From assembly GCA_024637035.1 (NCBI GenBank), contig JAGXFW010000024.1, positions 62,001 through 126,000 on the forward strand: a stretch of DNA of 64,000 bases, in the 5' to 3' direction. The notes beneath the pieces were generated by a model, which was given only the letters and a program-made list of their open reading frames with translations, had not been told where the DNA came from and searched no databases. Positions 3,208 through 16,710 of the stretch are shown here, one piece after another. Source of the stretch: Actinomycetes bacterium. Lineage in GTDB: Bacteria; Actinomycetota; Thermoleophilia; RBG-16-64-13. A program made the translations under genes and the position numbers. The number at the start of each line of letters is the position of its first letter. Within the stretch, counting starts at the first letter, position 1.

Positions 3208-4107
3208 ATGGACGTGGATATCGTCGCCGGGTATCTGGGCGCAGGCAAGACCTCCTGTATCCTAGAGATGATCAAGAATGACCCCGATCCGTCACGACTC
3301 GCTGTGTTGGTGAACGAGTTCGGTGACGTGGGCATCGATGCCGCTCTTCTGGGCGAGGGCACCGAAGTCGTCGAGCTTGCCAGTGGTTGTATCTGCTGCA
3401 CCCTGCGCCTCGACTTCCGCACCCAGATCAGTGAGATCGTCGATCGCTGGCATCCGCAACGTCTCCTAATAGAGCCCACCGGCGTTGCCACCGTCGCCCA
3501 AGTCGTTCGTTCACTGCGGCACAGCGACCTCAAGGACAAGGTCGGCGGCGCCCGTGTGTTCGTGCTGGTCGATGCGGTCACGTTCGCCGAGCGATTGCGC
3601 GACAGTCCCGCGTTCTTCTCGTCCCAGGTGACACAAGCTGACGTGCTCTTGCTCAACAAGACGGACTTGGTTCCGCCGGAGCGGACACAGGCCCTGAAGG
3701 GGGTCTTGGAACACATGAACCCCGAAGCGTGGATCATCCCCACCGTCGGCGGCCGGATCGGAGAAGACGCCGAGCTACCGTCTCCACATCCTCTTGAAGA
3801 CCCCGGGGATGCGGAAGTCCTCACCGGTTTGGCATCGCTGAGCTACGAAGTCGACCGCTTGGTCGAGCGGCGGGAAGTCCGGGGACTGTTCGATGGACTC
3901 ATTACCGGGGAGATGGGCCGGGTGGAGAGGGCCAAGGCGATCGTGCGCACGGTCGATGGCTGGTATCGGTTCGATGTTGCCTCGGGGCGGGTCGACGAGC
4001 GTCCATGGAGTCCGGCGCCCGGGGGACGCTTGGTGATAATAGGCACAGACTTGAGCAATGCAGATCTCGACGGGGCCGTGCGTTCGTTCGGCGGGAAGAA
4101 GGCATGA
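3208..4107 (+). CDS. CobW/COG0523-family G3E GTPase (metal or cofactor chaperone)
   Basis: This 299-residue G3E-family GTPase belongs to the CobW/COG0523 group, whose members deliver metals or act in cobalamin and metalloenzyme maturation. The Walker A motif GYLGAGKT lies at residues 8–15. The metal-binding CICC motif, a hallmark of the group, is at residues 61–64. The segment LLIEPTGVA is the Walker B/switch region, and LLNKTDLV is the guanine-specificity loop. The ATG at 3208 has a TAGGAGA ribosome site. Its stop overlaps the start of the next gene (ATGA), a corrinoid reductive activator, so the two are probably translationally coupled. The context suggests a role in corrinoid or methyltransferase activation rather than zinc supply, but this is inference. 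Confidence 0.9.
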   Translation: MDVDIVAGYLGAGKTSCILEMIKNDPDPSRLAVLVNEFGDVGIDAALLGEGTEVVELASGCICCTLRLDFRTQISEIVDRWHPQRLLIEPTGVATVAQVVRSLRHSDLKDKVGGARVFVLVDAVTFAERLRDSPAFFSSQVTQADVLLLNKTDLVPPERTQALKGVLEHMNPEAWIIPTVGGRIGEDAELPSPHPLEDPGDAEVLTGLASLSYEVDRLVERREVRGLFDGLITGEMGRVERAKAIVRTVDGWYRFDVASGRVDERPWSPAPGGRLVIIGTDLSNADLDGAVRSFGGKKA

Positions 4108-5753
4108 GAGTGGAAAGGTACGGCATCGCCCTCGACCTGGGCACAAGCGGCATCCGGGCGCAGGCGGTCGATCTGCGTAGCGGGGAGATCCTGTCCACAG
4201 CCATCACGACGCAACACCCGCTTCCGGGCGGGAACGTCATGGATCACCTGCACTTCGCCGTGGAGACGTCCTCGACCGGCATGTCCTCGATCACCCACAC
4301 CCTGATGATCGACTCTGTGAACAAGGTCATCGATGCCCTGCGCGTGCCGCGAGCTCACGTCGAGCGGGTGGCCATATGCGGTAACCCCATCCAGCTTTCC
4401 CTGTTCCAGGCGATGGAGATCCGCGACCTCGCCTATGCAGGCGAGAGCAAGCGGGCCTCGTTGGGTGTCGAGGTCCAAGCACGCGAGGCGCGCATCATCA
4501 CCGCGGGTGACATCGAGGGGCTCGACTTGCCCAGCGGCGCCGAGTTGGTCGTGCCGCCGGCCGTGCGGCACGAAGTAGGTGCCGACGCGTTAGCCATGAT
4601 GCTCAAGTCGGGCATGCTCGACCGCGATGAGATCGCCCTGGTCACCGACTACGGCACGAATGCCGAGATGGCGTTGAAGATCGGCGACCGGGTGGTGACC
4701 GGTTCGGCTGCCTGTGGGCCGGCGTTCGAGGGTCAGGCGATCAAGTTCGGCATGCTGGCGGCCCCGGGGGCCATATCGGACCTCGACCGGGTCGACGGTG
4801 CCTACCGCAACCTGGTGCTCGACCCACACATGTACGCGGCGGAAGGCGACTTGGTCGATCCTCGGACCGGGCAGGTGAATGGCGAGGGTGGCATTCGGGC
4901 GCGCGGCATCACGGGCACGGGCGTGATGGCGCTCATCGCTCTGGGGCTCGAGGACGGGGTGCTGAGGCTACCGAAGATAGACTCCGCCGATGGGCTGATG
5001 CATCTGGCGGATGGGATCGCCCTCTCGCACCTGGACGTGGGTGAGGTGGGCAAGGCTATCGGCGCCGCGCGCGCGGGTCACGTCACGCTCGCGCACGAGC
5101 TGGGCATCGACCTGGAAGAGGTGAAGGTCGCATACATGGCCGGCGCTTCAGGCACGTACGTCGACGCGTTGAAGGCTCAGGCCATCGGTATGGTGCCCGC
5201 GGCGGTCACGACCATCTACCAGGTTGGGAACACGTCGCTCATGCTGGCGCGCGACCTGGTGCTCGACCCCGAGCATCTGTGGGAGATCGAGCGTATCGCC
5301 AAGGATCTGCGTGCGGCGCACTGCATGTTCGCCGAGGCGCCGGTCTTCAAGCAGGTCTACGTGCTCGAGCTCTCCTACTGGACGGAGGGCATGCCGTGGG
5401 ACATGTACCTGAAGTTCATGAAGCGCGCGGGCTTGCCGGCGCCGCGCGAGCACGCCGTTCCGGCGAAGGTCATCCGCTTGGTGGAGAGGGATATCCCAGA
5501 CATGGGCAGCCGAGGTCTGGCCGTGGTGGAGGATGTGGGCATGTCCATGCTCGCCTGCTTCGAGGGCTGCACCGAGTGCGGCAAGTGCGGGGAGAACTGC
5601 CCCGAGGATGCGATAACGCTTGGCCATGACGAGCAAGGGCGACCTCAAGCGGAGGTGCGGAGTGCTCGTTGCCTGGGTCTCAGCTGTCTCCGTTGCGAGC
5701 TGGGTTGTCCTGAGCACGTCTTCCGTTTCACCGAGTTCCTGCGCGCCAGGTAG
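4104..5753 (+). CDS. RamA/RACo-like corrinoid reductive activation protein
   Basis: This 549-residue protein is an ATP-dependent reductive activator of corrinoid proteins, which returns accidentally oxidised Co(II) to the active Co(I) state. The N-terminal part (GIALDLGTSGIRAQAVD) is the DUF4445/ASKHA fold shared by RACo and RamA. The N-terminal 2Fe-2S domain of RACo is absent. The C-terminus instead carries a ferredoxin-like module with CTECGKCGENCP at about 489–500 and CLGLSCLRCELGCP at about 523–536, as in the RamA activators of methylotrophic archaea. The ATG at 4104 overlaps the cobW-like stop. mtaB and mtaC about 3 kb away supply a plausible client. Whether the second Cys set (CX4CX2CX3C) binds a complete 4Fe-4S cluster is not certain. 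Confidence 0.88.
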   Translation: MRVERYGIALDLGTSGIRAQAVDLRSGEILSTAITTQHPLPGGNVMDHLHFAVETSSTGMSSITHTLMIDSVNKVIDALRVPRAHVERVAICGNPIQLSLFQAMEIRDLAYAGESKRASLGVEVQAREARIITAGDIEGLDLPSGAELVVPPAVRHEVGADALAMMLKSGMLDRDEIALVTDYGTNAEMALKIGDRVVTGSAACGPAFEGQAIKFGMLAAPGAISDLDRVDGAYRNLVLDPHMYAAEGDLVDPRTGQVNGEGGIRARGITGTGVMALIALGLEDGVLRLPKIDSADGLMHLADGIALSHLDVGEVGKAIGAARAGHVTLAHELGIDLEEVKVAYMAGASGTYVDALKAQAIGMVPAAVTTIYQVGNTSLMLARDLVLDPEHLWEIERIAKDLRAAHCMFAEAPVFKQVYVLELSYWTEGMPWDMYLKFMKRAGLPAPREHAVPAKVIRLVERDIPDMGSRGLAVVEDVGMSMLACFEGCTECGKCGENCPEDAITLGHDEQGRPQAEVRSARCLGLSCLRCELGCPEHVFRFTEFLRAR

Positions 5754-5759
5754 GGGGTG

Positions 5760-5780
5760 GGGCGCGCTCATCGCGCGCCC
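5760..5780 (+). terminator. GC-rich hairpin after the corrinoid activator
   Basis: GGGCGCG, a short CTCAT loop and CGCGCGCCC form a strong hairpin just after the ramA-like stop. No T-run follows, so it may only partly terminate transcription before the VWA gene. Confidence 0.45.
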
Positions 5781-5817
5781 GGCGAGCAGGTGACAGCCGC
5801 AGCGTCGGGGTCGCGCC

Positions 5818-7800
5818 GTGAGTCAACACCCGATCACCTTTGAGCACCTCTTCTTTCCGGGACTGAGTCCGGGGGAGAGCGAGCGCCTCGAGCGCGAGCT
5901 CGAGCTCATCGAGACGTCCGCGTGTCTATTCGCATCCGGGCTCTGCGGTCTGGATGTTCACATCAGCTGGTCCCTCGGCCGTGCCGAGCCCGTGACGTGG
6001 ATGCAGTCGCGCGACGACACCCTTTCGGTGCATCTGTGGGTCGACCTGCTCTCACCACGGAACCTGCCCTCCGACTCGGTGACCGGCGAGCCTGTCTCAC
6101 TCGGGGATGCGGCTTCCGCAACAGCCCGGCGTATTCCCATCGAACGGGCCGACTTCCTCCAAGCTTTCCGTACCGGCTTCCTACACGCTTTGGGTCGGGT
6201 TCTGGGGGCGCCCGCCATGGCCGGTCGACAGGTGGGAGCGACAGGCGCAAAGGGCTCTGTCAGCGTCGCCGACCTCGCGACACCTGAACCGTTGGGTTGG
6301 GTCCTTCGTCCACATCATCAACGCTGGCGCCGCCTTCCGACATCTGTGCGCGCTCGTCTGAGCGAACGGGAGACGGTGAGCGCGGTGCGCGGCATTGTCG
6401 AGCATCTCGAGGGAGCTAGGACCGACGCTCTGCTTGCACGCCGTTTCGCCGGAGCCGTCCGCCACCTACAACCCCGTTTCGCCGGTGACCGGGAGCTCGG
6501 CCGTTCCGCCGATCCGGCGGTCGCCCTGCTCGGCTTGCTGGCCCTGGCGATGAGGGCCGGCGGCTCCGACACGATGGCCGAAGCCGCCGCGGTCGCAACC
6601 GGCCTGTCCGGGTCGGAGGATGCCTCGGACGTGCGGCACTCCTCCCACGTACAACATGCGTTCGAACGACTGGCTCCCGCGGCACGGCGTATCGCGGACA
6701 GTGACGACGCCGAGGCTGCGTATCGTCTGGCGGAGTTCGCGGTGTACGATCTTCTCCCGGTGCTTCTGGCTCTGGGCGACGTTGTCGTTGTCCCCGTCCC
6801 GGCGGAACCTCTTCCCGCGCCCCAGAGCACGCGCTCTCCCGTGGATAGACGCGGAATCGCCCAGTTCTGCGGCATTGCCCGAGAGGTGGCTCCCGACGTA
6901 GTCCAGGGTCCGATCGGAACGGTACTCGTCACGCTGCCGCACTTGGTTGCCGGGCACGCTCTCTTCCGCGTCGACCATGCGCTTGCCCGCGATCTCGTGC
7001 CCGATGCGACGCTTTCCGGCGTGCTGCGCGGAATGGTCGGCGAGTACGGTCCTCAGGCGCTCGAGGCCTTCGCCGAGCAGGCGGGACCGCTCCGTCGTGC
7101 GCTGCGAGTCAACTGGGAGCGACGCGAACACGGGCGCTTTCGCAGCGGTACGCACGTGGGTATCACCAACCTGCGCCGCTTCGTGACGGTGGAGGACCTG
7201 CGACTGTTCCAACGCCTGAAGGCTCCGCAGGCGTTGAGCTACTACTTCCACGTACTGGTGGACGTGTCATACAGCATGTTGCACGAGCGCAACGTCGAAA
7301 AGGCCCTGGCCATCGCGTATGCGTTCACCGAACTGCTCCACACGGCCCGAGTGCCGGTCGACGTCACTCTCTACTCCTCGGGCATCACCGAGTTGTATGA
7401 CCACCAGCGAGATACCCTTCAGCCTTGGTTCGGCGGCGATTTCGGCTATCTGATGTCCGGCACTCTGGAGATGGAGGCGATCGCGTTCGCGAAGCAGAAG
7501 GCCGACCGCCTATGGCACCAGCGGAAGATATTCGTCGTTGTGACCGACGGCACTCCATCGACGATCTCGCTGCCGGCGGTAGGGGCATCCTCGCTGCACG
7601 AGTACTACGAGGAGGGGCTGCAGCCCTGGCTGACCGCAGCCGGCATCGAGTTGCTGGCGGTGGGCATCGGTGTCCAACCAGACTACCACCGTCGCGCAGT
7701 GGCACTGACTGAGGGGTGGGATGCCTTGGGCGTGTTCATGGGCCTGCTAGAGGAGATCGTGCGTGAAGGGGCCGCGCGGAGTCGGGACCTCTGGGAGTAG
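5818..7800 (+). CDS. VWA-domain protein, CobT/NorD/CbbO-like partner of a MoxR ATPase
   Basis: The predicted 660-residue protein has a C-terminal von Willebrand A domain with a complete MIDAS metal site. DVSYS gives Asp482, Ser484 and Ser486, SGTLEME gives Thr549, and VVTDG gives Asp577. The N-terminal 470 residues are Ala/Arg-rich and unassigned. This architecture is that of the VWA partners of MoxR-type AAA+ ATPases: CobT of the cobalt chelatase, NorD, and CbbO of Rubisco activase. A matching AAA+ gene converges from the other side 64 bp away. The start is GTG at 5818, with no strong ribosome site. The position next to corrinoid activation and methyltransferase genes suggests metal insertion or conformational activation of a methyltransferase component. 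Confidence 0.82.
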   Translation: MSQHPITFEHLFFPGLSPGESERLERELELIETSACLFASGLCGLDVHISWSLGRAEPVTWMQSRDDTLSVHLWVDLLSPRNLPSDSVTGEPVSLGDAASATARRIPIERADFLQAFRTGFLHALGRVLGAPAMAGRQVGATGAKGSVSVADLATPEPLGWVLRPHHQRWRRLPTSVRARLSERETVSAVRGIVEHLEGARTDALLARRFAGAVRHLQPRFAGDRELGRSADPAVALLGLLALAMRAGGSDTMAEAAAVATGLSGSEDASDVRHSSHVQHAFERLAPAARRIADSDDAEAAYRLAEFAVYDLLPVLLALGDVVVVPVPAEPLPAPQSTRSPVDRRGIAQFCGIAREVAPDVVQGPIGTVLVTLPHLVAGHALFRVDHALARDLVPDATLSGVLRGMVGEYGPQALEAFAEQAGPLRRALRVNWERREHGRFRSGTHVGITNLRRFVTVEDLRLFQRLKAPQALSYYFHVLVDVSYSMLHERNVEKALAIAYAFTELLHTARVPVDVTLYSSGITELYDHQRDTLQPWFGGDFGYLMSGTLEMEAIAFAKQKADRLWHQRKIFVVVTDGTPSTISLPAVGASSLHEYYEEGLQPWLTAAGIELLAVGIGVQPDYHRRAVALTEGWDALGVFMGLLEEIVREGAARSRDLWE

Positions 7801-7818
7801 CGTGAGAGGCGGAACAGG

Positions 7819-7835
7819 GCCGCACGAGATGCGGC
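7819..7835. terminator. Small hairpin between convergent VWA and AAA+ genes
   Basis: GCCGCA and TGCGGC are separated by five bases in the 64-bp convergent gap. The stem is weak and lacks a T-run. Confidence 0.3.
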
Positions 7836-7864
7836 GGGAGGGCGACGCCGAGGGAGTGGGAGCG

Positions 7865-8956
7865 CTAGGCTCCTGCGTCGAGGCGGGCTAGATCCCAGGT
7901 GGTGGCGTACGCGAAGATCTGTTCGCGGAAGATGGCCTTCATGCGATCGTCGAGCAGGTCGTAGAACGCCATCTTGGCGGCGCTCACGGGGCCCAGATGA
8001 AGCGCGAGTGCCGCCCACGACTCCAAGGTGCCGGTGCTCATCACGAAGTTGAACGAGTGCACCCGCTTCGCGAGGATCTCCCGGCAGACACCGGCGACCT
8101 GCAGTATGGAATCGAGCATGTTCGTGTGCTCGGGTCGCGAGAGCGCCGGAAGGCGCTCGAGCAGGATGGTGCGTTCGGCCTCGAGGTCGAGGAACCCCAT
8201 GCGTACCGAGGCCCAGCGGCGCAGATAGGCGGCTGAGAGTTCCTTGGTGCCCGGATACAGCGTGGGGTACTCCCCGGGGTTGAAGGTGGCGTAGATGCGG
8301 CACCAGGCGTGTTGATGCACCACCTCGTTGTCCTTCTCGACGACCACAAGGGCCCGCGAACCGTCGAGAAGGCCGTGGAGTACGAACCACACCTCCTGGC
8401 CGGTGGCGTTCATCTCCTCGAGAAGCAGAACCCCCCCTCCGCGCACGGCTGTGGTCACCAGCCCGTCCTGGAACATCACCGTGCCACGTCCGGCGGGCAG
8501 GAGTCTGCCGATGATGTCGTCGGTGGTGGACAGGCCGTGAAGGTTCATGCGGTAGACGGGCGCGCCAAGGAGGGAGGCGAAGTACCGCACGAGTTCGGTC
8601 TTGCCCACGCCGGTATGTCCGTGGAGGGCCAGCGGTGTATTGAGGCTGTACGCGAGAGCGCAACGGTAGAGGAGAGCGTCGTGGTCGAGGTAGAAACCGA
8701 GCGGAGGGACAAGGTCTGCCCGGCCGGCGAGCAAGGCGGTGGGCCAGCGCCGCAGAACCACGCCTCGTTCTACGGTGCGGCCTTCTTCGTTGGCGAACGA
8801 CCCGGTGAAGAGCAATCGATCGTCGCCCACGAGGTACACGTGATCGAAGTCGGTTCGCTCCGTGGCCACCACCGGAGCTGCGGTGACCTCGCGCGCCGTA
8901 GCCAGCAGTGAATCCATGTCCGTCGCCGCAAGATCGGGGTACGGGACGTGCTCCAT
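7865..8956 (-). CDS. MoxR/CobS/CbbQ-type AAA+ ATPase
   Basis: This 363-residue AAA+ ATPase of the MoxR branch belongs to the same branch as CobS, NorQ and CbbQ, which act as ring-shaped remodelling or chelatase motors together with a VWA protein. Walker A is GHTGVGKT at residues 113–120, and Walker B is GVLLLEEMN at 175–183. The sensor 1 region is ATFNPGEYPTLYPG, in the form typical of the CobS/NorQ group. The ATG is at 8956, 104 bp after the mtaC stop with a strong hairpin between. Being last in the mtaB-mtaC direction and convergent with a VWA gene, it is best read as the ATPase half of a MoxR–VWA pair serving the corrinoid methyltransferase. Alternatively, it could be a stray cobalt-chelatase CobS homologue. 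Confidence 0.88.
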   Translation of the reverse strand: MEHVPYPDLAATDMDSLLATAREVTAAPVVATERTDFDHVYLVGDDRLLFTGSFANEEGRTVERGVVLRRWPTALLAGRADLVPPLGFYLDHDALLYRCALAYSLNTPLALHGHTGVGKTELVRYFASLLGAPVYRMNLHGLSTTDDIIGRLLPAGRGTVMFQDGLVTTAVRGGGVLLLEEMNATGQEVWFVLHGLLDGSRALVVVEKDNEVVHQHAWCRIYATFNPGEYPTLYPGTKELSAAYLRRWASVRMGFLDLEAERTILLERLPALSRPEHTNMLDSILQVAGVCREILAKRVHSFNFVMSTGTLESWAALALHLGPVSAAKMAFYDLLDDRMKAIFREQIFAYATTWDLARLDAGA

Positions 8957-8990
8957 GTTCTGTCCAGTCTGTTGTCGGCCGGTCGCAAAG

Positions 8991-9024
8991 CGGAGGCCGG
9001 TCCAAGATGCTGGACCGGCCTCCG
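8991..9024. terminator. Perfect 14-bp hairpin between mtaC and the AAA+ gene
   Basis: Arms at 8991–9004 and 9011–9024 are perfectly complementary around a 6-nt loop. On the minus strand the hairpin sits after mtaC and before the ATPase gene, followed only by CTTTG. It could reduce transcription into the ATPase or stabilise the mtaC mRNA 3' end. Confidence 0.6.
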
Positions 9025-9060
9025 TGAGGTTGCTCGCGCTACGCCCAGATCACTATGAGA

Positions 9061-9825
9061 CTACACCACGAGGTTCCACTTGGCGCGCATGTCTTCCCAC
9101 GACATGCCCGCGGCTGCGTCCCCGGCCATCTCCGGGCCTTGCTTGGCGAACGTGGCATACACGCCTCTGTCCCAGCTGGTCACCCACTCTTCGGAGACCG
9201 CACCACCGCTGGCTACGACCGGGATGTTGATGCCTTCCTGTGTAAGGAGTTCGGCGACCCGGTGGAACGCGGACATCGTGGTCGTCATGAGGGCGGTGCC
9301 CGTCACGAGATCGGCCTTGTTGTCCTTGGCGGCCTGGACGACGGTCTCTTCCGGCACATCGGAGCCGAGGTCGATGACCTTGTAGCCGTTCGCCCTGATC
9401 AGAGCGGCGGCGACGTTCTTGCCGATGTCATGGATATCGCCGTGGGCGCAGTGCATCACCACGGTGCCCCTCTTCACCACCGCCGAACCTAGGGCCTCCT
9501 CAGCCATGTTGAGCCCGACCATGAGAGCGTCGGAGGAGAGGATCACCTGGGGCAGGTAGTAGACCCCGTCGTCCCAGAGCTTGCTCACCTCGGCCATGCC
9601 GAGGATGAGGGTGTCGATCACCGTCTGGGGACCCTTGGACGCTATGGCCGCCTTCGAGGCTTCGGCCACCATGTCCTCGTCGCCCTCTACTACTCCCTTG
9701 GCGATCGCTTGGAGTGCGGGGTCCGTGGAAACGTCCGCAGCGTCCCTCTTCTTCGGAGCGATCTTGATGTCGTAGCGGATGAAGATGGGGTCGAAATTGG
9801 TTAGATCGTTGACTGTCTTTTGCAT
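9061..9825 (-). CDS. mtaC: Methanol-type corrinoid protein MtaC
   Basis: This 254-residue corrinoid protein carries the methyl group between the substrate-specific methyltransferase and the next acceptor. It has the N-terminal helical cap domain of methionine-synthase-like B12 proteins, then the cobalamin domain with the base-off signature GDIHDIGKNV. His132 is the expected lower axial cobalt ligand. SGGAVSEEWV near the C-terminus matches the loop around the nucleotide tail. The ATG at 9825 has an AGGAGGG site 6 bases upstream; an in-frame start 18 codons earlier has no such site. It follows mtaB by 82 bp. Methanol is the likely substrate because the partner is MtaB, although related MtaB proteins can act on other O-methyl compounds. 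Confidence 0.93.
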   Translation of the reverse strand: MQKTVNDLTNFDPIFIRYDIKIAPKKRDAADVSTDPALQAIAKGVVEGDEDMVAEASKAAIASKGPQTVIDTLILGMAEVSKLWDDGVYYLPQVILSSDALMVGLNMAEEALGSAVVKRGTVVMHCAHGDIHDIGKNVAAALIRANGYKVIDLGSDVPEETVVQAAKDNKADLVTGTALMTTTMSAFHRVAELLTQEGINIPVVASGGAVSEEWVTSWDRGVYATFAKQGPEMAGDAAAGMSWEDMRAKWNLVV

Positions 9826-9907
9826 CGATGCCCTCCTGCGATTCGAGGATCTCGCCGTTGGCGGGGTCGTCTCCGCCACTCCTTCGGATGTGCTCTCACG
9901 CTGCCCC

Positions 9908-11281
9908 TCAGAAGCCGTAGGAGGTGGGGTCGAAGCCCGGCACCTTGCTGTACTCGCTGAGGCACATGTCGACGAAGTCAGCCTCGTTGTCCGGCAGCGC
10001 CTCGACGTCGGCGCGGGCCTTGGCGAGCGCGTCCTTCTCGAAGTCGGTCAGCAGCATCTTGCTGTCAGCGTCGATCAACTCGGCCGTCTTCAACACGGCT
10101 GCCTTCGCCCGCAAGTAGTAGCTGTCGACGTTGGCCACGATGGCCTTGCCGATTTCGTACGAGTTGTCGGGCGACAGCATGAAACCGTGCACATCACGAT
10201 ACTTGTCGCTCGCCACGTTGATAGCCTGCAATTCCTTGGCGTAGCCGAGCTCGATCGCAGCGTTCATCTGAGCCACGTTGTAGCCGAGGATCTCGGTGAA
10301 GACCTCGACGCTCGAGCCACCGAACATGTCGTGGTACTCGACCGCCTCATTACTCCACAGGTCGACGACCGCCGCCACCAGGTTCGACTGGAGCTCGGCG
10401 TGCGCACATGCCGAGGCAACGCCCTCCATGGTGATGGGCACGCCGGTGATGGCCTTGATGATCGGGTCTTCGTAGGCGCAGTCCTTCGTGGGCCCGGTGG
10501 CGCCGCACTCGTAGGCCACCAGGGAACGGGCTGCCGAGCAACCGCGTGCCAGGGCGGCGACCGTGTGCGGGACATCGGTGGCAGTGAACCCCCCTGCCAT
10601 GAACATGGCCGTGTTGCCGCGGGCGCAGTCGGTGTCACCCCCAGGGGTGATGCCGTGCTTCTCGGCTATGGCGACGATCTGAGGCCACAGCCAGGCCATG
10701 TCTATGCTGGACAGCACGCCGATGCCGAAGATGATCCCCTTCATGTCGTTCCGCTGGATGGCGTAGTCGAAGACCTCCTTGCCACCCATGGTCTCGATCG
10801 AGAGCACGTCGGCGCCGTTCGCCGCGGTGGAGTCGAACGTCTCGAGCATCCAGTCGATCTCTTGGCACTTGCGCATGTTCACCATGTCGGGCTTGCGAAG
10901 GTCCGCCACGGTGGAGATCAAGGCCGATTTGAGGCCGTACTTGTCGTAGTACTCCTTCATCTGGGCCTTGGCTTGCGTGAAAATGGCGGCCGCCCACTCA
11001 GGCTGGCTCGTCATCTGGTAGATGTGCTCGAACTCGATCACGATGCTGGGGAAGCCCAGGGCCGCGCAGTGGCTCAGGGCGTCCTCGGTCATACGCTGGT
11101 ACTCTTTGAGTATCTTCGCTTTCGTGGCCTCACTCCCCGGGCGGGGATGGGGCACGATCTGCGGGTGGACGTGCTTCTTGCCAAGCTCTACCGGACCAAA
11201 GCCTATGGAAACCGGATGCTTCGCTGTGCCGAAGATCATCTCTTCCCAGCTTCCATAAGCCATCGACGTATACTTAGGCAT
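9908..11281 (-). CDS. mtaB: Methanol:corrinoid methyltransferase MtaB
   Basis: This 458-residue zinc methyltransferase matches the archaeal MtaB in length. It transfers the methyl group of methanol to Co(I) in MtaC. The zinc ligands known for Methanosarcina MtaB (Glu164, Cys220, Cys269) align with Glu163 in SIETMGG, Cys219 in DTDCARGN and Cys268 in TKDCAYEDP, a uniform one-residue offset. The enzyme should therefore be catalytically intact. The ATG at 11281 is preceded by GGAGGGAGACGC. A 229-bp gap separates it from the small membrane gene upstream, so it may have its own promoter. Bacterial MtaB homologues also occur in acetogens that use methanol. No methyl-cobamide:CoM or tetrahydrofolate methyltransferase (MtaA, MtrH) is visible here, so the final acceptor enzyme must be elsewhere. 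Confidence 0.95.
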   Translation of the reverse strand: MPKYTSMAYGSWEEMIFGTAKHPVSIGFGPVELGKKHVHPQIVPHPRPGSEATKAKILKEYQRMTEDALSHCAALGFPSIVIEFEHIYQMTSQPEWAAAIFTQAKAQMKEYYDKYGLKSALISTVADLRKPDMVNMRKCQEIDWMLETFDSTAANGADVLSIETMGGKEVFDYAIQRNDMKGIIFGIGVLSSIDMAWLWPQIVAIAEKHGITPGGDTDCARGNTAMFMAGGFTATDVPHTVAALARGCSAARSLVAYECGATGPTKDCAYEDPIIKAITGVPITMEGVASACAHAELQSNLVAAVVDLWSNEAVEYHDMFGGSSVEVFTEILGYNVAQMNAAIELGYAKELQAINVASDKYRDVHGFMLSPDNSYEIGKAIVANVDSYYLRAKAAVLKTAELIDADSKMLLTDFEKDALAKARADVEALPDNEADFVDMCLSEYSKVPGFDPTSYGF

Positions 11282-11510
11282 GCGTCTCCCTCCGTTGGTT
11301 CGTGTGAGTCCAGCTTGCAGGCCACCGGCCCGTCTGTTGGCGTCAGTCGGTCGGTCTGTGGCGCCAGATGAGATCACTCCATAGGCCGCACCTTTCCGGG
11401 GGCACTGGGGAGCCGCACCGCTTGAGGAACCGAACGGCTCGATGTCTGAGACCGTCGCGCACGGATCTTCTCGCGGACTTGGATCACCGACCCGTCGTTG
11501 TTCCATGAGA

Positions 11511-11675
11511 TCACGTGACGAGATAGTGGTAGAGCAGCATGTACATGAGTGCCCAGAGCGACACGACCGAGCCGACGACCCCGCCGATGTTCAGTCCGAG
11601 CAGAATGTACGTGGACACGGTGGTCAGCACTCCGACTACCAGCACCTCCAACATGACTCGATTCCTGGTGTTCAC
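11511..11675 (-). CDS. Small membrane protein of 54 residues upstream of mtaB
   Basis: This short gene is easily missed. GTG at 11675 lies 6–7 bases after a perfect AGGAGGT site, and the frame runs 54 codons to TGA at 11511. The product begins MNTRNRVMLEVLVV and is almost wholly hydrophobic, with one segment at about residues 8–27 (LEVLVVGVLTTVSTYILLGL) and another at about 33–53. It ends HYLVT. It lies 45 bp after a 4-TM protein gene on the same strand and precedes mtaB. Together with the two upstream genes it looks like the small subunit of a membrane complex. I do not recognise a family. The strong ribosome site and operon position are the main evidence that it is real. Confidence 0.65.
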   Translation of the reverse strand: MNTRNRVMLEVLVVGVLTTVSTYILLGLNIGGVVGSVVSLWALMYMLLYHYLVT

Positions 11676-11720
11676 GTTGCACGACCTCCTGGTTCAGGGT
11701 CCGTCGCTGGTGCTCGAGGG

Positions 11721-12140
11721 CTACAGCTTCGAATAGAAAGACCCCACCCACAGCGCTGTCATGACAAAGACGAGGCTCCACGCGATGTACGTGAGCGACA
11801 TCAGCGGGTAGGCTTCCGAGATTTTCCCGCTCACGTCGCCGCCTACGATCGCAGGAGTGATGGCTTTGAAGAGATACGTAAAGGCCAGGCCGAGTGCGAG
11901 TATGACCACCGTGCCGATAGCCTTGCGGACCATGGGTACCTTTTCGGCCGGGAGGCCCCAGTAGCCGGTGAGGCACAGGGTCCAGAAGATGACCCACAGG
12001 CAGATGTCCAATCCCAGGAGACCCTGAGCGGTATCCGAGCCTCTGACCGTCCATTCCAAGAGGTGCATGACGTAGGTGCTGATCGCGGCGAGAACGACGA
12101 CGACCCCGACGACCCCGATCTTGGCTGCTGTTCTGCTCAT
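11721..12140 (-). CDS. Four-TM membrane protein of unknown function (mta-associated)
   Basis: This 139-residue protein is predicted to have four transmembrane segments at about residues 7–24, 41–60, 72–91 and 112–133. A conserved-looking VRKAIGTVVILALG segment opens the third helix. The upstream neighbour has VRKACGTAIAFVG at the corresponding place, so the two are probably distant paralogues forming a heteromer. The start is ATG at 12140 with a GGGGGTAG site, 11 bp after the upstream stop. The family is not recognised. Lying upstream of mtaB on the same strand, it could be part of a transporter or membrane anchor for the methyl-transfer system, which is inference from position only. Confidence 0.7.
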   Translation of the reverse strand: MSRTAAKIGVVGVVVVLAAISTYVMHLLEWTVRGSDTAQGLLGLDICLWVIFWTLCLTGYWGLPAEKVPMVRKAIGTVVILALGLAFTYLFKAITPAIVGGDVSGKISEAYPLMSLTYIAWSLVFVMTALWVGSFYSKL

Positions 12141-12151
12141 CGCGCTACCCC

Positions 12152-12613
12152 CTACACCAGTTTGAGGTGTTGGACGAACACGAGCCAGACAAAACCCCAG
12201 TGGAGGGGTAGTAGGGAGAGCACCTGGGAGCCGGAGGTGAAGTTCAGACCGAACGATCCTTCGGGTAGCCCGTATTGGGCGAAGTGTGTCGTGAGCATGA
12301 CAGACACAGCCGTGCCGACGAAGGCGATGGCGGTACCGCAGGCCTTCCGCACGACCTCAGGGGAGAAGGTCTGTTCGCCCTCGAGCGTACAGGAAAAGCA
12401 CTCGCCTCCGCCCATACCCAGGTACAGGCCGATAAAGAAGGTGAAGAACAGCCCCCAGTAGGCGAAGACAGCTGAGAAGTTGGGCGCCGTCACGAGGAGG
12501 CTGGTGTCGCCGGGGCTCATCTTGCCCATCCACCAGAATACGTACGTGATCGCCGCTGCCACAGCCCAGAAGAGAACCAATGCGAGTACGCGCTCCGTGG
12601 CTTTGGAATTCAT
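12152..12613 (-). CDS. Four-TM membrane protein with CxxC motif, unknown function
   Basis: This 153-residue protein has four likely membrane segments (about residues 9–29, 43–66, 89–108 and 133–150) and a Gly-rich loop GMGGGECFSCTLEGE holding a CxxC pair that could bind metal or form a disulfide. Its third helix starts VRKACGTAIAFVG, resembling the next gene's VRKAIGTVV. The ATG at 12613 has a GGAGG site 4 bases upstream; a TTG one codon earlier is less well placed. It is the first gene of a minus-strand run of two 4-TM proteins, a 54-residue membrane protein, mtaB, mtaC and an AAA+ ATPase. The function is unknown. An uptake channel or electron-transfer membrane module are possibilities, not conclusions. 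Confidence 0.7.
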   Translation of the reverse strand: MNSKATERVLALVLFWAVAAAITYVFWWMGKMSPGDTSLLVTAPNFSAVFAYWGLFFTFFIGLYLGMGGGECFSCTLEGEQTFSPEVVRKACGTAIAFVGTAVSVMLTTHFAQYGLPEGSFGLNFTSGSQVLSLLPLHWGFVWLVFVQHLKLV

Positions 12614-13059
12614 CAATCCTCCAGAGGTCGCGAGAAGAAATGAACCGGTACGAGGGAATCCATGGCCATACTAGGGCGTCGAGGCGTCCGGACACATAGG
12701 CATCACCCTCCCGTGTGGTGCCGACTGCGTCACCATATGCGCGAGGGGAGTAGGATAGGGCGCCCTTGGCAAGGCGCCCGAGATAATCTGACCGGCCGCT
12801 ACATCGCTATTCTTGCCGCGCGCACTCCCCGAGCCGGATACTGACTAGCATGAGGGAAGTCGGCTCGGAAGTCAACGCGAAGCGACGCTGAAGTGACGCA
12901 CCCGCACCCGCACCCGGAGGCGCCCGGCCATCGGGGCCGGCGGTCCGCGCTCTCAGAGTGAGGTGCCGCCAGGTGCTTCCACGTCGCCCAAGCCGCGCTT
13001 CGGGTACCATTCGCTGAGGTGCGCGAACATGGACGCCGCGACGACGGAGGTGAGGCGGG
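12614..13059. other. Divergent intergenic region upstream of the membrane/mta genes
   Basis: This 446-bp gap between divergent genes holds no convincing gene. It should contain the promoter of the minus-strand membrane-protein/mta run and that of the MFS gene. An imperfect palindrome of GGGCGC and GCGCCC arms with an inner CTT/AAG pair lies at 12758–12779 and could be an operator or a terminator stem. I see no cobalamin riboswitch core. Confidence 0.5.
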
Positions 13060-14280
13060 TTGAGGTTGCTGCGCGAGATGTGGGGCACGCCTGGGGGCCG
13101 TGGGTTCGTCATGCTCGCGGTCATGTCCGGGGCGTTCGGCTTCGCGGTCAACGCGCAGCAGGGCCTCTTCACCAATTTCTTCGAAGAGGTGTTGCTGCTC
13201 GAGGGCCCTCAATTCGGCTACATCACCGCCATCCGTGAAGTGCCGGGGTTCTTCCTCATCCTCCTCACCGCCGTGCTCTACCGCGTCCCGCTTCAGCGCG
13301 TCACCGCGGGCGCGCTCGTCTTGTTCGGGGTGGGGCTGGCTCTGATCGGGTTCTCGACCAGCTTCTGGGGAGTCGTTCCCTGGGTGGTGCTGTCGTCCCT
13401 GGGATTCCACACGGTGCTGCAGACCCAGCCCGCCCTGGGCATGAGCCTCACCACCGAATCGAGAAGCGGCCGGGTGCTCGGGCAGATGGCCGCTATAGGC
13501 CAAGCAGGCACCCTCGTCGCGCTCGGGGCGATCCTCCTGGCCTTCCACTTCGAACTCGTGTCGTTCCGCCCCATGTTCGTCCTTCTGGGGGCGATCGCTG
13601 TCATCGGTGCGGTGGCCATCTTCCGGTTCCCGAATCTGCACGAGGGACAGGCCCAGGTTGCGGCGATGCGTCGGGAGCCGATCGTCTTTCGACGGGCGTA
13701 TCGGTACTTCTACCTGCTGAACATCCTCGACGGTGCCCGACAGCAGATCTTCTTCTCTTTCGGGCTGTGGGTGCTGGTGAACCGGTTCCACCTCGGGGTA
13801 GCCCAGATCTCGGGGGTGCTACTGGCCGTCGCGTTCGTGAACATGGTCTCGTCCACGTGGGTGGGCCACATGATCGACAGGTACGGGGAACGTCGCACGC
13901 TTTCTCTGGTGAACCTGGGGTTCGTGGTCGCCCTGGCCGGTTACGCGCTTGCGAACCACGTTGTCATCGCGATCCTCTGCTACGTGATCTACTGGTTCGT
14001 CGGTCCGATCGCCCCGCTCGGAGCCGCCACCTACCTACGCAAGATCGCCGTGCCCTCAGAGGTGGCCCCGAGCCTGGGCATGGGGGTCACCCTGTTGCAC
14101 GCCACGGCGATCGTCGTGCCGGTGGCCGTGGGCTACATCCTCAACTTCGTGGGCTATCAGATCCCGTTCCTCATCGCCTGCGGCTTCGCACTCATCACGT
14201 TCTTCGTGACGCTCAGACTGGACCCGCGGGCCCAGCGGTCGGCCGAGCGCGTCGCGCTGGACGCCGCCGCGGGAGTGTAA
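13060..14280 (+). CDS. MFS transporter
   Basis: This 406-residue major facilitator superfamily protein has about eleven to twelve hydrophobic helices. The N-terminal half carries GFAVNAQQGLFTNFFEEVL and AIREVPGFFLILLTAVLYR, and the C-terminal half repeats the pattern with VGHMIDRYGERRTLSLVN, the usual loop between helices of the second six-helix bundle. It begins with TTG at 13060, 9 bases after a GGAGG site. It stands alone on the plus strand between the mta genes and a multicopper oxidase. The substrate is unknown; there are no biosynthetic neighbours that would suggest one. Confidence 0.8.
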   Translation: MRLLREMWGTPGGRGFVMLAVMSGAFGFAVNAQQGLFTNFFEEVLLLEGPQFGYITAIREVPGFFLILLTAVLYRVPLQRVTAGALVLFGVGLALIGFSTSFWGVVPWVVLSSLGFHTVLQTQPALGMSLTTESRSGRVLGQMAAIGQAGTLVALGAILLAFHFELVSFRPMFVLLGAIAVIGAVAIFRFPNLHEGQAQVAAMRREPIVFRRAYRYFYLLNILDGARQQIFFSFGLWVLVNRFHLGVAQISGVLLAVAFVNMVSSTWVGHMIDRYGERRTLSLVNLGFVVALAGYALANHVVIAILCYVIYWFVGPIAPLGAATYLRKIAVPSEVAPSLGMGVTLLHATAIVVPVAVGYILNFVGYQIPFLIACGFALITFFVTLRLDPRAQRSAERVALDAAAGV

Positions 14281-14610
14281 GGGCAGAGCAGACGCCCACT
14301 CCTGCGTGACTCAAGGGGGTTCTTGGGGTCCGCGCTCGGCGTGCCCAGCCTTCGTTTCGAAGAGCTGTCGACGGCTGCCCGAGAATTTATTCTGAGAGAA
14401 TGCACATCAATGGTTTAGGAACATGAGGGATCTCCAATAAACTCTCCAGATTCTCCTTAGCGTGCACAGGGGGAGGGTCCTTGCAGTCGTCCTAATCGGA
14501 CGGGTGAAATGGGGGATGGTAGCCCGATGCTCTGTCTCCGCGCAGTATGCGCCGGAGGCTCAGCAGGGAAGGCAGGCCCCGAAGACAGAGAGGAAGGGGA
14601 GAAGGGAACG
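14281..14610. other. Intergenic region upstream of the multicopper oxidase
   Basis: This 330-bp gap has no gene. It contains a locally AT-rich patch (about 14375–14460), unusual in this chromosome and probably the promoter region of the oxidase gene. Within it, ATTCT-GAG-AGAAT at 14389–14401 is a small palindrome that could be an operator. Confidence 0.45.
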
Positions 14611-16710
14611 ATGGCACGAGAGATCACACGACGACAGTTCTTCAAGGTCACAGCGGGGGGCATGTTGGCCCTCTACGTGGGGTCGCGGCTGGAAGGTTTC
14701 ACGCCGGTGGCGTACGCGGCCATTCCCGGCGGCACCTTGGATCCCGTCACGGGTGTGGGTAAATATCTCACTCCGATGCTCATCCCGCCGGTGATGCCGA
14801 GGGCGAGCCAGATCAAGATGAAGGACGGCAAAGACGGCGACTACTACGAGATCTCGATGAAGCAGTTCGAGCAGCAGATCCTGCCGGTTGGACTGCCGGC
14901 CACAACCGTCTGGGGATACGGAGCCGTCACGGCCGCCAGCAAACAAGGGTTGCTCCTGCACAACGCCCCCTCGCTCACAATCGAGGCCCAGGCGGATAGG
15001 CCGGTCCAGGTTCGTTGGATCAACGGTCTGGTCGACAAGAACAACAAGTACCTACAGCACTTACTTCCGGTGGACCCGACGCTGCACTGGGCGAATCCGC
15101 GCGGCGGCATTGCCGGTCGCGACATGCGCCCAGTCTTCACCAGCACACCGGGCCGCTACACCGGCCCGGTGCCCATGATCACCCATCTGCACGGCGCTGT
15201 TGGCGTGGGCGATGAGAGTGACGGCTACCCCGAGGCATGGTACTTGCCCCACGCCGCGGACATACCAAAGGGCTATGCCACCGATGGCACCTGGTACAAT
15301 TTCTTCGCCGCCAAAGCCGAAGCGAACAATGGCGCCAAATGGAAAAAGGGCTACGCGACCTTCGAGTACCCGAACCTGAACCGCGCCTCGACCCTCTGGT
15401 ACCATGACCATTCGTTGGGCATGACGCGAGTGAACGTGTATGCAGGCCCGGCTGGCTTCTACATCGTTCGCGGCGGCCCCGACGGTGACGGTGCCGTACT
15501 CGACAGCCGCACCACCACACCTGCGGTGCTGCCTGGCCCCGCTCCGAAAGAGGGCGACAAGTTCCCCTCCGACAAGACGTACTACGAGATCCCGATCGTG
15601 ATCCAGGACCGCTCCTTCAACGCGGACGGTTCACTGTTCTACCCGGACACGCGCGAGTTCTTCGACGGGATCGTCAGTCCTTTGATCCCGAATGGTCCGG
15701 AGGCAGAGCAGTTCTCGCCCATCTGGAACCCGGAGTTCTTCGGGAATACGATGATGGTCAACGGGAACACGTGGCCGTTCCAGACCGTGGAGCAACGGCG
15801 CTATCGTCTTCGCTTCTTGAACGGCTGCCAGTCGCGCTTCCTTATCCTCGATTTCGACAAGATCCCCGGCATCGAGGTGTGGGCGATCGGCAACGAAGGC
15901 GGCTTCTTGAGTGCGCCGGTGAACCTGACGGCGACGAACAGAAATCGTCTCCTGATGGCCTTGGCGGAACGTGCCGACCTCATCGTCGACTTCACGAACG
16001 TCCCGGTGGGCAATCACATCCTCGGCAACGTCGGTCCCGACGAGCCCTTCGGCGGAGGCGAGCCGGACGGCGACTTCGACGTGGCCGATCCGGACAGCAC
16101 CGGACAGATCATGCAATTCCGAGTCGTGCCGGCAGTCGCCCCCGATCCCAGCACGCCCGCGCAGGACCTGCGGCTGCCGGCCGTTGCTCCGCTACCCGTG
16201 GAGACCGTCACCCGGAAGCTTGCGCTCATCGAGGCGATGGGTGAGGGTGTCGACGCTACCGGAGCCGAGGTCGAGGGCCCGGTCGAGGCGCTGCTTGGTG
16301 TGGTGAACGAGGCAGGCGGTTGGACGCCCGTGAAGTGGATGGAACCGGTCACCGAGAACCCGGCCGTCGGAGCTACGGAGGTGTGGGAGTTCTACAACAC
16401 CACCGGTGACGCCCACCCGATCCACGTGCACGAGACGGTCTTCGAAGTGGTGAGCCGCGAGGGCTTGGCGCTCGACGGTGAAGACGTCGCAGACCCCATC
16501 GCACTCGACGGCGTCGTCACGGCACCGGAGTCGTGGGAGACGGGCTTCAAGGATACGGTCATCGCCTACCCCGCTCAGGTGACCCGCATCCGTGCCCAGT
16601 TCAACCTGCCCGGCCAGTTCGTATGGCACTGCCACATCCTCGAACATGAGGACAACGAGATGATGCGGCCGTTCCGGATCGGAGATCCCCAGCCTGGTCA
16701 ACCCGGGTAG
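14611..16710 (+). CDS. Tat-exported multicopper oxidase (CotA/bilirubin-oxidase-like)
   Basis: This 699-residue multicopper oxidase oxidises a reductant and reduces oxygen to water at a trinuclear copper centre. The ATG at 14611 precedes a Tat signal, TRRQFFK at about residues 6–12, followed by a hydrophobic stretch ending near VAYA. All four copper motifs are present: HLHGAVG, WYHDHSLGMTR, HPIHVHETVF and the C-terminal WHCHILEHEDNEMMRPF, which includes the type 1 Cys, His and a following Met. The length and the spread of motifs resemble the CotA/bilirubin oxidase group. The gene is monocistronic, with a strong hairpin after it. The natural substrate (metal ions, phenolics or bilirubin-like tetrapyrroles) is not evident. 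Confidence 0.92.
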   Translation: MAREITRRQFFKVTAGGMLALYVGSRLEGFTPVAYAAIPGGTLDPVTGVGKYLTPMLIPPVMPRASQIKMKDGKDGDYYEISMKQFEQQILPVGLPATTVWGYGAVTAASKQGLLLHNAPSLTIEAQADRPVQVRWINGLVDKNNKYLQHLLPVDPTLHWANPRGGIAGRDMRPVFTSTPGRYTGPVPMITHLHGAVGVGDESDGYPEAWYLPHAADIPKGYATDGTWYNFFAAKAEANNGAKWKKGYATFEYPNLNRASTLWYHDHSLGMTRVNVYAGPAGFYIVRGGPDGDGAVLDSRTTTPAVLPGPAPKEGDKFPSDKTYYEIPIVIQDRSFNADGSLFYPDTREFFDGIVSPLIPNGPEAEQFSPIWNPEFFGNTMMVNGNTWPFQTVEQRRYRLRFLNGCQSRFLILDFDKIPGIEVWAIGNEGGFLSAPVNLTATNRNRLLMALAERADLIVDFTNVPVGNHILGNVGPDEPFGGGEPDGDFDVADPDSTGQIMQFRVVPAVAPDPSTPAQDLRLPAVAPLPVETVTRKLALIEAMGEGVDATGAEVEGPVEALLGVVNEAGGWTPVKWMEPVTENPAVGATEVWEFYNTTGDAHPIHVHETVFEVVSREGLALDGEDVADPIALDGVVTAPESWETGFKDTVIAYPAQVTRIRAQFNLPGQFVWHCHILEHEDNEMMRPFRIGDPQPGQPG

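Follow-up and report, generated by a model that had tools for sequence, protein, structure and literature searches.

Why should a gene cluster for methanol:corrinoid methyl transfer carry an AAA+ ATPase and a partner protein with a VWA domain? The question is raised by positions 3208-12613 of a 64-kb stretch of DNA (the window, G000:C7:62001-126000) from a 3.57-Mb genome of 34 contigs (completeness 100%, contamination 1.63%). To our knowledge, the entry of zinc and corrinoid into MtaBC-type enzymes has been little studied, and only reductive reactivation of the RamA type is well described. The answer proposed here, to which we give an even chance, is that an uncultured Actinomycetota family added a dedicated MoxR-AAA+/VWA pair to its methanol module, where it may serve as an ATP-driven maturase or reactivase of MtaBC or RamA by analogy with NorQD and CoxDE. 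This reading is suggested by conserved gene order, co-occurrence with mtaB, kinship to pairs linked to molybdenum and tungsten enzymes, the absence of CobN and a NorQD-like architecture.

Gene identities were taken from gene calls, Pfam and NCBIfam profiles and matches to PDB chains. All nine genes that a sequence-only reading of this DNA had placed at 3208-12613 are present there according to the gene calls, Pfam and NCBIfam, and the 4-bp overlap that it described between the CobW and RamA genes (3208-4107 and 4104-5753) is borne out:

3208..4107, plus strand: CobW/COG0523 G3E GTPase, likely a metallochaperone (Pfam cobW 6.7e-43 and CobW_C; GCICC motif).
4104..5753, plus strand: RamA-type corrinoid reductive activase (RACo domains and a C-terminal 2x[4Fe-4S] region; TIGR04270, 739 bits).
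5818..7800, plus strand: VWA protein of the mta type with NorD/CobT-like architecture (CobT_C 8e-7; PDB match to CobT, 1e-4; alignment; tree clade 100/100).
7865..8956, minus strand: MoxR-class AAA+ ATPase, CobS/NorQ/CbbQ-like (AAA_5; PDB matches; alignment).
9061..9837, minus strand: MtaC, methanol corrinoid protein (B12-binding domains; 2i2x_B, 5.6e-56).
9908..11281, minus strand: MtaB, methanol:corrinoid methyltransferase (PF12176, 635 bits; 2i2x_A, 1.6e-138).
11511..11675, minus strand: TM3, a two-helix membrane protein of ~54 residues (GTG start inferred; shortest reading from 11654; kept upstream of mtaB in L011, L009 and L010).
11721..12140, minus strand: TM2, a four-helix membrane protein of 139 residues without a Pfam family (hydropathy; 92, 56 and 57% identity in G070, G076 and G092).
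12152..12613, minus strand: TM1, a membrane protein of 153 residues without a Pfam family (92, 55 and 56% identity in G070, G076 and G092; four helices in a low-confidence model).

The genes form two convergent blocks, TM1-TM2-TM3-mtaB-mtaC-AAA on the minus strand and cobW-ramA-VWA on the plus strand. The AAA+ and VWA genes are the last of their respective blocks and lie tail to tail. Together their products have the composition of the maturase pairs of the NorQD/CbbQO/CoxDE class, namely a single AAA+ module with Walker A and B motifs and an adjacent partner with a C-terminal VWA domain and a full metal-ion-dependent adhesion site (MIDAS). The Walker motifs are intact in the alignment (Walker A, GHTGVGKT), and the MIDAS residues D482-x-S484-x-S486, T549 and D577 are invariant. 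The best single-module solved chains for the ATPase are CobS (2.6e-18), NorQ (1.2e-17) and CbbQ (3.9e-16); the match of the VWA protein among solved chains is CobT, as listed above. An AlphaFold model of the VWA protein from a four-sequence alignment reached a predicted local distance difference test (pLDDT) score of 33 and was not used for a fold search.

A comparison of 17 window genes with the matching stretches of relatives spanned three genera: that of the window (g1), g2, and g9, which includes genome G076. Matches in the two g2 genomes are limited to MtaB, MtaC, AAA, VWA, RamA and CobW, in the order and orientation of the window and with MtaA added, and the other 11 window genes tested have no match in the g2 stretches. 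What is conserved is thus the module, not its wider surroundings. The order shared by g1 and g2 is CobW>RamA>VWA> <AAA<(MtaA)<MtaC<MtaB, with flanks that otherwise differ. Conservation of the pair beside mtaBC had been set beforehand as the test on which the proposal could fall, and the pair passed it, its order and orientation being unchanged between two genera.

The distribution of the pair follows that of mtaB. MtaB was found in 6/299 sampled genomes of the class and 3/396 of the phylum, and the VWA profile matched 7/299 and 3/396, in each case within one family, all 18 genomes of which were searched. Each of the five near-complete mtaB genomes has the mta-type VWA gene, which is missing from all 12 family genomes that lack mtaB; this association (Fisher 1.6e-4, or 7.8e-4 with only the eight near-complete mtaB-lacking genomes) is uncorrected for relatedness. 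A tree of the VWA proteins unites those of g1 and g2 with one copy from G076 in a single clade (100/100), apart from copies linked to molybdenum or tungsten enzymes in G022, G080, G070 and G076. These sister pairs adjoin molybdenum hydroxylase subunits (MoCoBD domains, [2Fe-2S] subunit) in G022, G080 and G076, and an aldehyde ferredoxin oxidoreductase in G070. In each of the three genera the mta-type pair is convergent, whereas the molybdenum/tungsten-type pairs are co-directional. The N-terminal halves of the mta-type VWA proteins score 80-132 bits against one another across genera, compared with 27-63 bits against the molybdenum/tungsten type; this is in line with the variable N-terminal domain of NorD, which has been proposed to set target specificity (PMC9976466). 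In G076 the elements are scattered, with the mta genes at 553 kb, the AAA+/VWA pair at 455-459 kb and cobW-ramA at 4,529 kb, and all have been retained. The VWA and CobW genes of this genome appear frameshifted in a long contig, which was taken for sequencing error.

As side observations, sister AAA+/VWA pairs at L058, L059, L060 and L061 were seen by molybdenum hydroxylase operons (CoxLMS/XDH-type), L059 by a tungsten-type aldehyde ferredoxin oxidoreductase. A transposase-like insertion lies between the convergent VWA and AAA+ genes of G076 (L057:10456-11692).

The proteins that such a pair might serve are well defined. MtaB aligns over its full length with 2i2x_A, the Methanosarcina barkeri enzyme. 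Its Glu163, Cys219 and Cys268, named as zinc ligands in the sequence-only reading, are invariant in six sequences and align with residues 164, 220 and 269 of that chain, which we take to be its zinc ligands, as Hagemeier and colleagues are said to have described them in 2006; that assignment stands. MtaC carries the motif GDIHDIGK, and its corrinoid histidine (DxHxxG) aligns with His136 of 2i2x_B. The residue is conserved as claimed, but its number in the 258-residue reading is His136, four away from the His132 given before unless a later start is used. RamA scores well above the curated TIGR04270 cut-off of 500 bits and contains Fer4 domains; it is the sole match above that cut-off in the window's genome, and G076 has two copies. 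The GCICC motif of CobW is invariant in nine sequences. Its homologues occur in the mta clusters of the family, and those from Desulfobacterota and Spirochaetes are 32-36% identical. Judged from their sequences, MtaB and MtaC would form a methanol:corrinoid methyltransferase with RamA as its reductive activator and the COG0523 protein as its likely metallochaperone.

This layout of MtaBC, CobW and RamA is ordinary and already known, since it was reported in 2009 and recurs in Desulfobacterota and Spirochaetales. The 2009 paper describes COG0523 (CobW-like) genes clustered with mtaA, mtaB, mtaC and ramM in methanogens and a Clostridium (PMC2770081), so neither CobW nor RamA is peculiar to this cluster. 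Both genes lie beside mtaB in five of eight Desulfobacterota, Deltaproteobacteria and Spirochaetales loci (the Spirochaetales RamA is a partial match only); two of the other three have RamA without CobW, and one is on a cut contig. The AAA+ and VWA proteins of the window are unmatched in all eight. What appears to be new is the association of the AAA+/VWA pair with mtaBC.

The membrane genes hold a less constant place. Conservation of TM1-TM3 alongside mtaB is confined to g1 and g9; the linkage proposed for them stands in these genera but not in g2, where none of the three has a match. A role in the passage of methanol or solutes is a guess. The predicted structure of TM1 (pLDDT 57) was not used for a fold search, and a defence role found no support, PADLOC having returned only a 14-bit match. 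In Desulfobacterota mta clusters, an AmiS/UreI-family membrane protein follows mtaB, in the TM position, and a conserved protein of ~190 residues without a Pfam family lies between cobW and ramA (both at L033:11529-12059, 13256-13828 and L037:11009-11665, 12791-13369). Beyond the module, a large multicopper oxidase with a twin-arginine-like N-terminus (14509-16710) lies near this anaerobic methanol module and adjoins an MFS transporter (13060-14280).

The absence of MtaA and MtrH claimed for the cluster holds within the window but fails genome-wide, where MtaA is encoded on another contig and seven matches to PF00809 (pterin-binding family) occur. In both g2 genomes the mta cluster itself contains a gene for a URO-D-type MtaA of 341 residues, placed between those for MtaC and the AAA+ protein; this MtaA matches the methylcobalamin:CoM methyltransferase 4ay7 (6.7e-66) and retains HIC (HxC) and Cys. 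The MtaA of the window's genome (G000:C33:452834-453838) is 68% identical to it, so that the three components of a methanol system are present at the genome level. MtaA of this type occurs in the other near-complete mtaB genomes as well, and the mtaB-lacking relatives tested score no higher than 71.5 bits. An in-frame TAG considered in the MtaA gene of G076 proved to be an ordinary terminal stop.

The C33 gene sits inside a pyrrolysine methylamine cluster (L041 = G000:C33:444000-463000; L081 = G000:C33:425000-444900). This cluster holds a tRNA-Pyl with a CUA anticodon (L041:8677-8748), a TAG-interrupted MttB, TAG-split frames resembling MtbB and MtmB, several corrinoid proteins, amine-type transporters and reading frames read as putative PylS, PylB and PylC. 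No RamA was found in the mapped C33 stretches (L041, L081), and the methylamine corrinoid proteins presumably depend on the RamA of the mta cluster too. The cluster is not the self-contained unit once suggested, because its sole RamA is presumably shared with the methylamine enzymes and its MtaA is encoded on C33. As for the methyl acceptor, one PF00809 match lies in a carbon monoxide dehydrogenase/acetyl-CoA synthase (CODH/ACS, Wood-Ljungdahl) operon with FTHFS, FolD, MetF and MeTr-like genes (names other than CdhC/ACS were read by eye), which makes transfer of the methanol methyl group into the Wood-Ljungdahl pathway plausible.

Several observations weigh against a function of the pair on MtaBC or RamA. 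The evidence is genomic and limited to three genera. Grouping by mta linkage is not seen in the AAA+ sequences alone, the g1 ATPase being nearer to molybdenum/tungsten-linked ATPases than to the mta-linked one of g2, and no VWA protein was detected in G092 (64% complete), which has mtaB, RamA and CobW. The Desulfobacterota and Spirochaete clusters with CobW and RamA lack the pair, so MtaBC does not generally depend on it. A distance of 98 kb separates the mta-type pair of G076 from mtaB, and a molybdenum-hydroxylase operon is ~5 kb away from the pair. This last arrangement, like the sister pairs beside molybdenum hydroxylases or aldehyde ferredoxin oxidoreductase and the pair-free Desulfobacterota clusters, would be expected if the pair matured another metalloenzyme, of molybdenum or tungsten, and stood beside mtaBC through inherited or hitchhiking gene order. 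We consider that explanation unlikely, though it deserves serious weight: four genomes, drawn from two genera, have the pair interleaved between mtaC and ramA and show no recognised molybdenum enzyme in the mapped neighbourhood, and the mta-type VWA clade tracks the presence of mtaB.

The pair might also serve corrinoid proteins more broadly, with RamA or the loading of corrinoid as its object in both the methanol and the pyrrolysine methylamine systems, and not MtaB specifically. The VWA gene lies within the RamA block, and the genome has one activase above the cut-off despite the methylamine system on C33; set against this, neither of the two RamA copies of G076 is beside the pair, and we regard the idea as rather improbable. 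If the pair instead inserted cobalt during corrinoid synthesis, as a cobaltochelatase-like complex, this would suit CobS and CobT as the closest single-module solved relatives, and it was from cobalamin synthesis that CobW first got its name. Such a role is very improbable because none of the eight genomes searched has CobN, while the same search was positive in control genomes. The scores are also far under the family cut-offs (CobS, 60.7 against 558.55 bits; CobT, 21.9 against 759.05 bits), and the role was rejected as largely refuted.

The more specific form of the proposed maturase, a MoxR-AAA+/VWA machine dedicated to the corrinoid methyltransferase, which would supply MtaBC with zinc or corrinoid, or rescue it, alongside RamA and CobW, is put forward tentatively, at slightly less than an even chance. 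In such a scheme, the methanol methyl group would pass through MtaB to Co(I) MtaC and, via the MtaA encoded in the methylamine cluster, to an acceptor, probably tetrahydrofolate, and on into the Wood-Ljungdahl pathway. RamA would reduce Co(II) MtaC back to Co(I), and a metal, probably zinc destined for MtaB, could plausibly come from CobW. The AAA+ ring would pull or twist the VWA protein, whose N-terminal half would recognise the target. For NorQD, ATP hydrolysis is proposed to twist the NorD linker and open the target for iron insertion (PMC9976466, PMC13036017). MtaBC (or RamA) might likewise be opened for metal or corrinoid loading, or freed from a dead-end state, in the manner of NorQD on nitric oxide reductase. 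An action of the pair on MtaBC is our inference from the genomic pattern.

A literature search for AAA+/VWA proteins with corrinoid methyltransferases returned no description, only a B12 review. A pair that accompanies mtaBC in different genera, linked or not, is a concrete candidate for zinc or corrinoid loading, and if the proposal is true, the MoxR-AAA+/VWA maturase class extends to corrinoid/zinc enzymes. The sister pairs by molybdenum and tungsten enzymes in the same family make MoxR/VWA target specificity comparable within one lineage. Expression of corrinoid methyltransferase genes has been recorded in thawing peat (PMC10805028), among them genes of Actinobacteriota such as genus RBG-16-64-13, and the family studied here is likely the same lineage.

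Among known systems, the mtaABC clusters with COG0523 subfamily 13 and ramM in Methanosarcina/Methanococcus and Clostridium (Haas et al. 2009, PMC2770081) share MtaB, MtaC, a CobW-family GTPase and a RamA-type activator in one neighbourhood. The passage describing those clusters includes neither an AAA+/VWA pair nor TM1-3, and MtaA, part of those clusters, is here unlinked in g1 and linked in g2. In acetogens (Moorella/Acetobacterium, PMC13391211), MtaABC likewise feeds the methanol methyl group into the Wood-Ljungdahl pathway, as we infer here. Their MtaA is a 29.7-kDa protein, whereas the MtaA found here is a URO-D-family protein of ~341 residues like the methanogen 4ay7. The CobN-CobS-CobT cobaltochelatase provides the best single-module PDB matches of both members of the pair, with the differences in CobN and in scores given above. 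CoxD and CoxE of the Mo-Cu CO dehydrogenase (PMC3471820, PMC4240915) are an AAA+/VWA pair for post-translational metal-cluster assembly, and the sister pairs of this family adjoin molybdenum hydroxylases; the mta-type pair, in contrast, adjoins corrinoid genes, and its VWA protein has no match to Pfam VWA_CoxE. NorQ and NorD of the nitric oxide reductase cNOR (PMC9976466, PMC13036017) share with the present pair a stand-alone MoxR-class AAA+ protein, a ~70-kDa partner with a C-terminal VWA domain and intact MIDAS, and an adjacent metalloenzyme. The putative target here is instead a soluble Zn/corrinoid methyltransferase, the two genes are convergent, and the VWA sequence is nearer to CobT.

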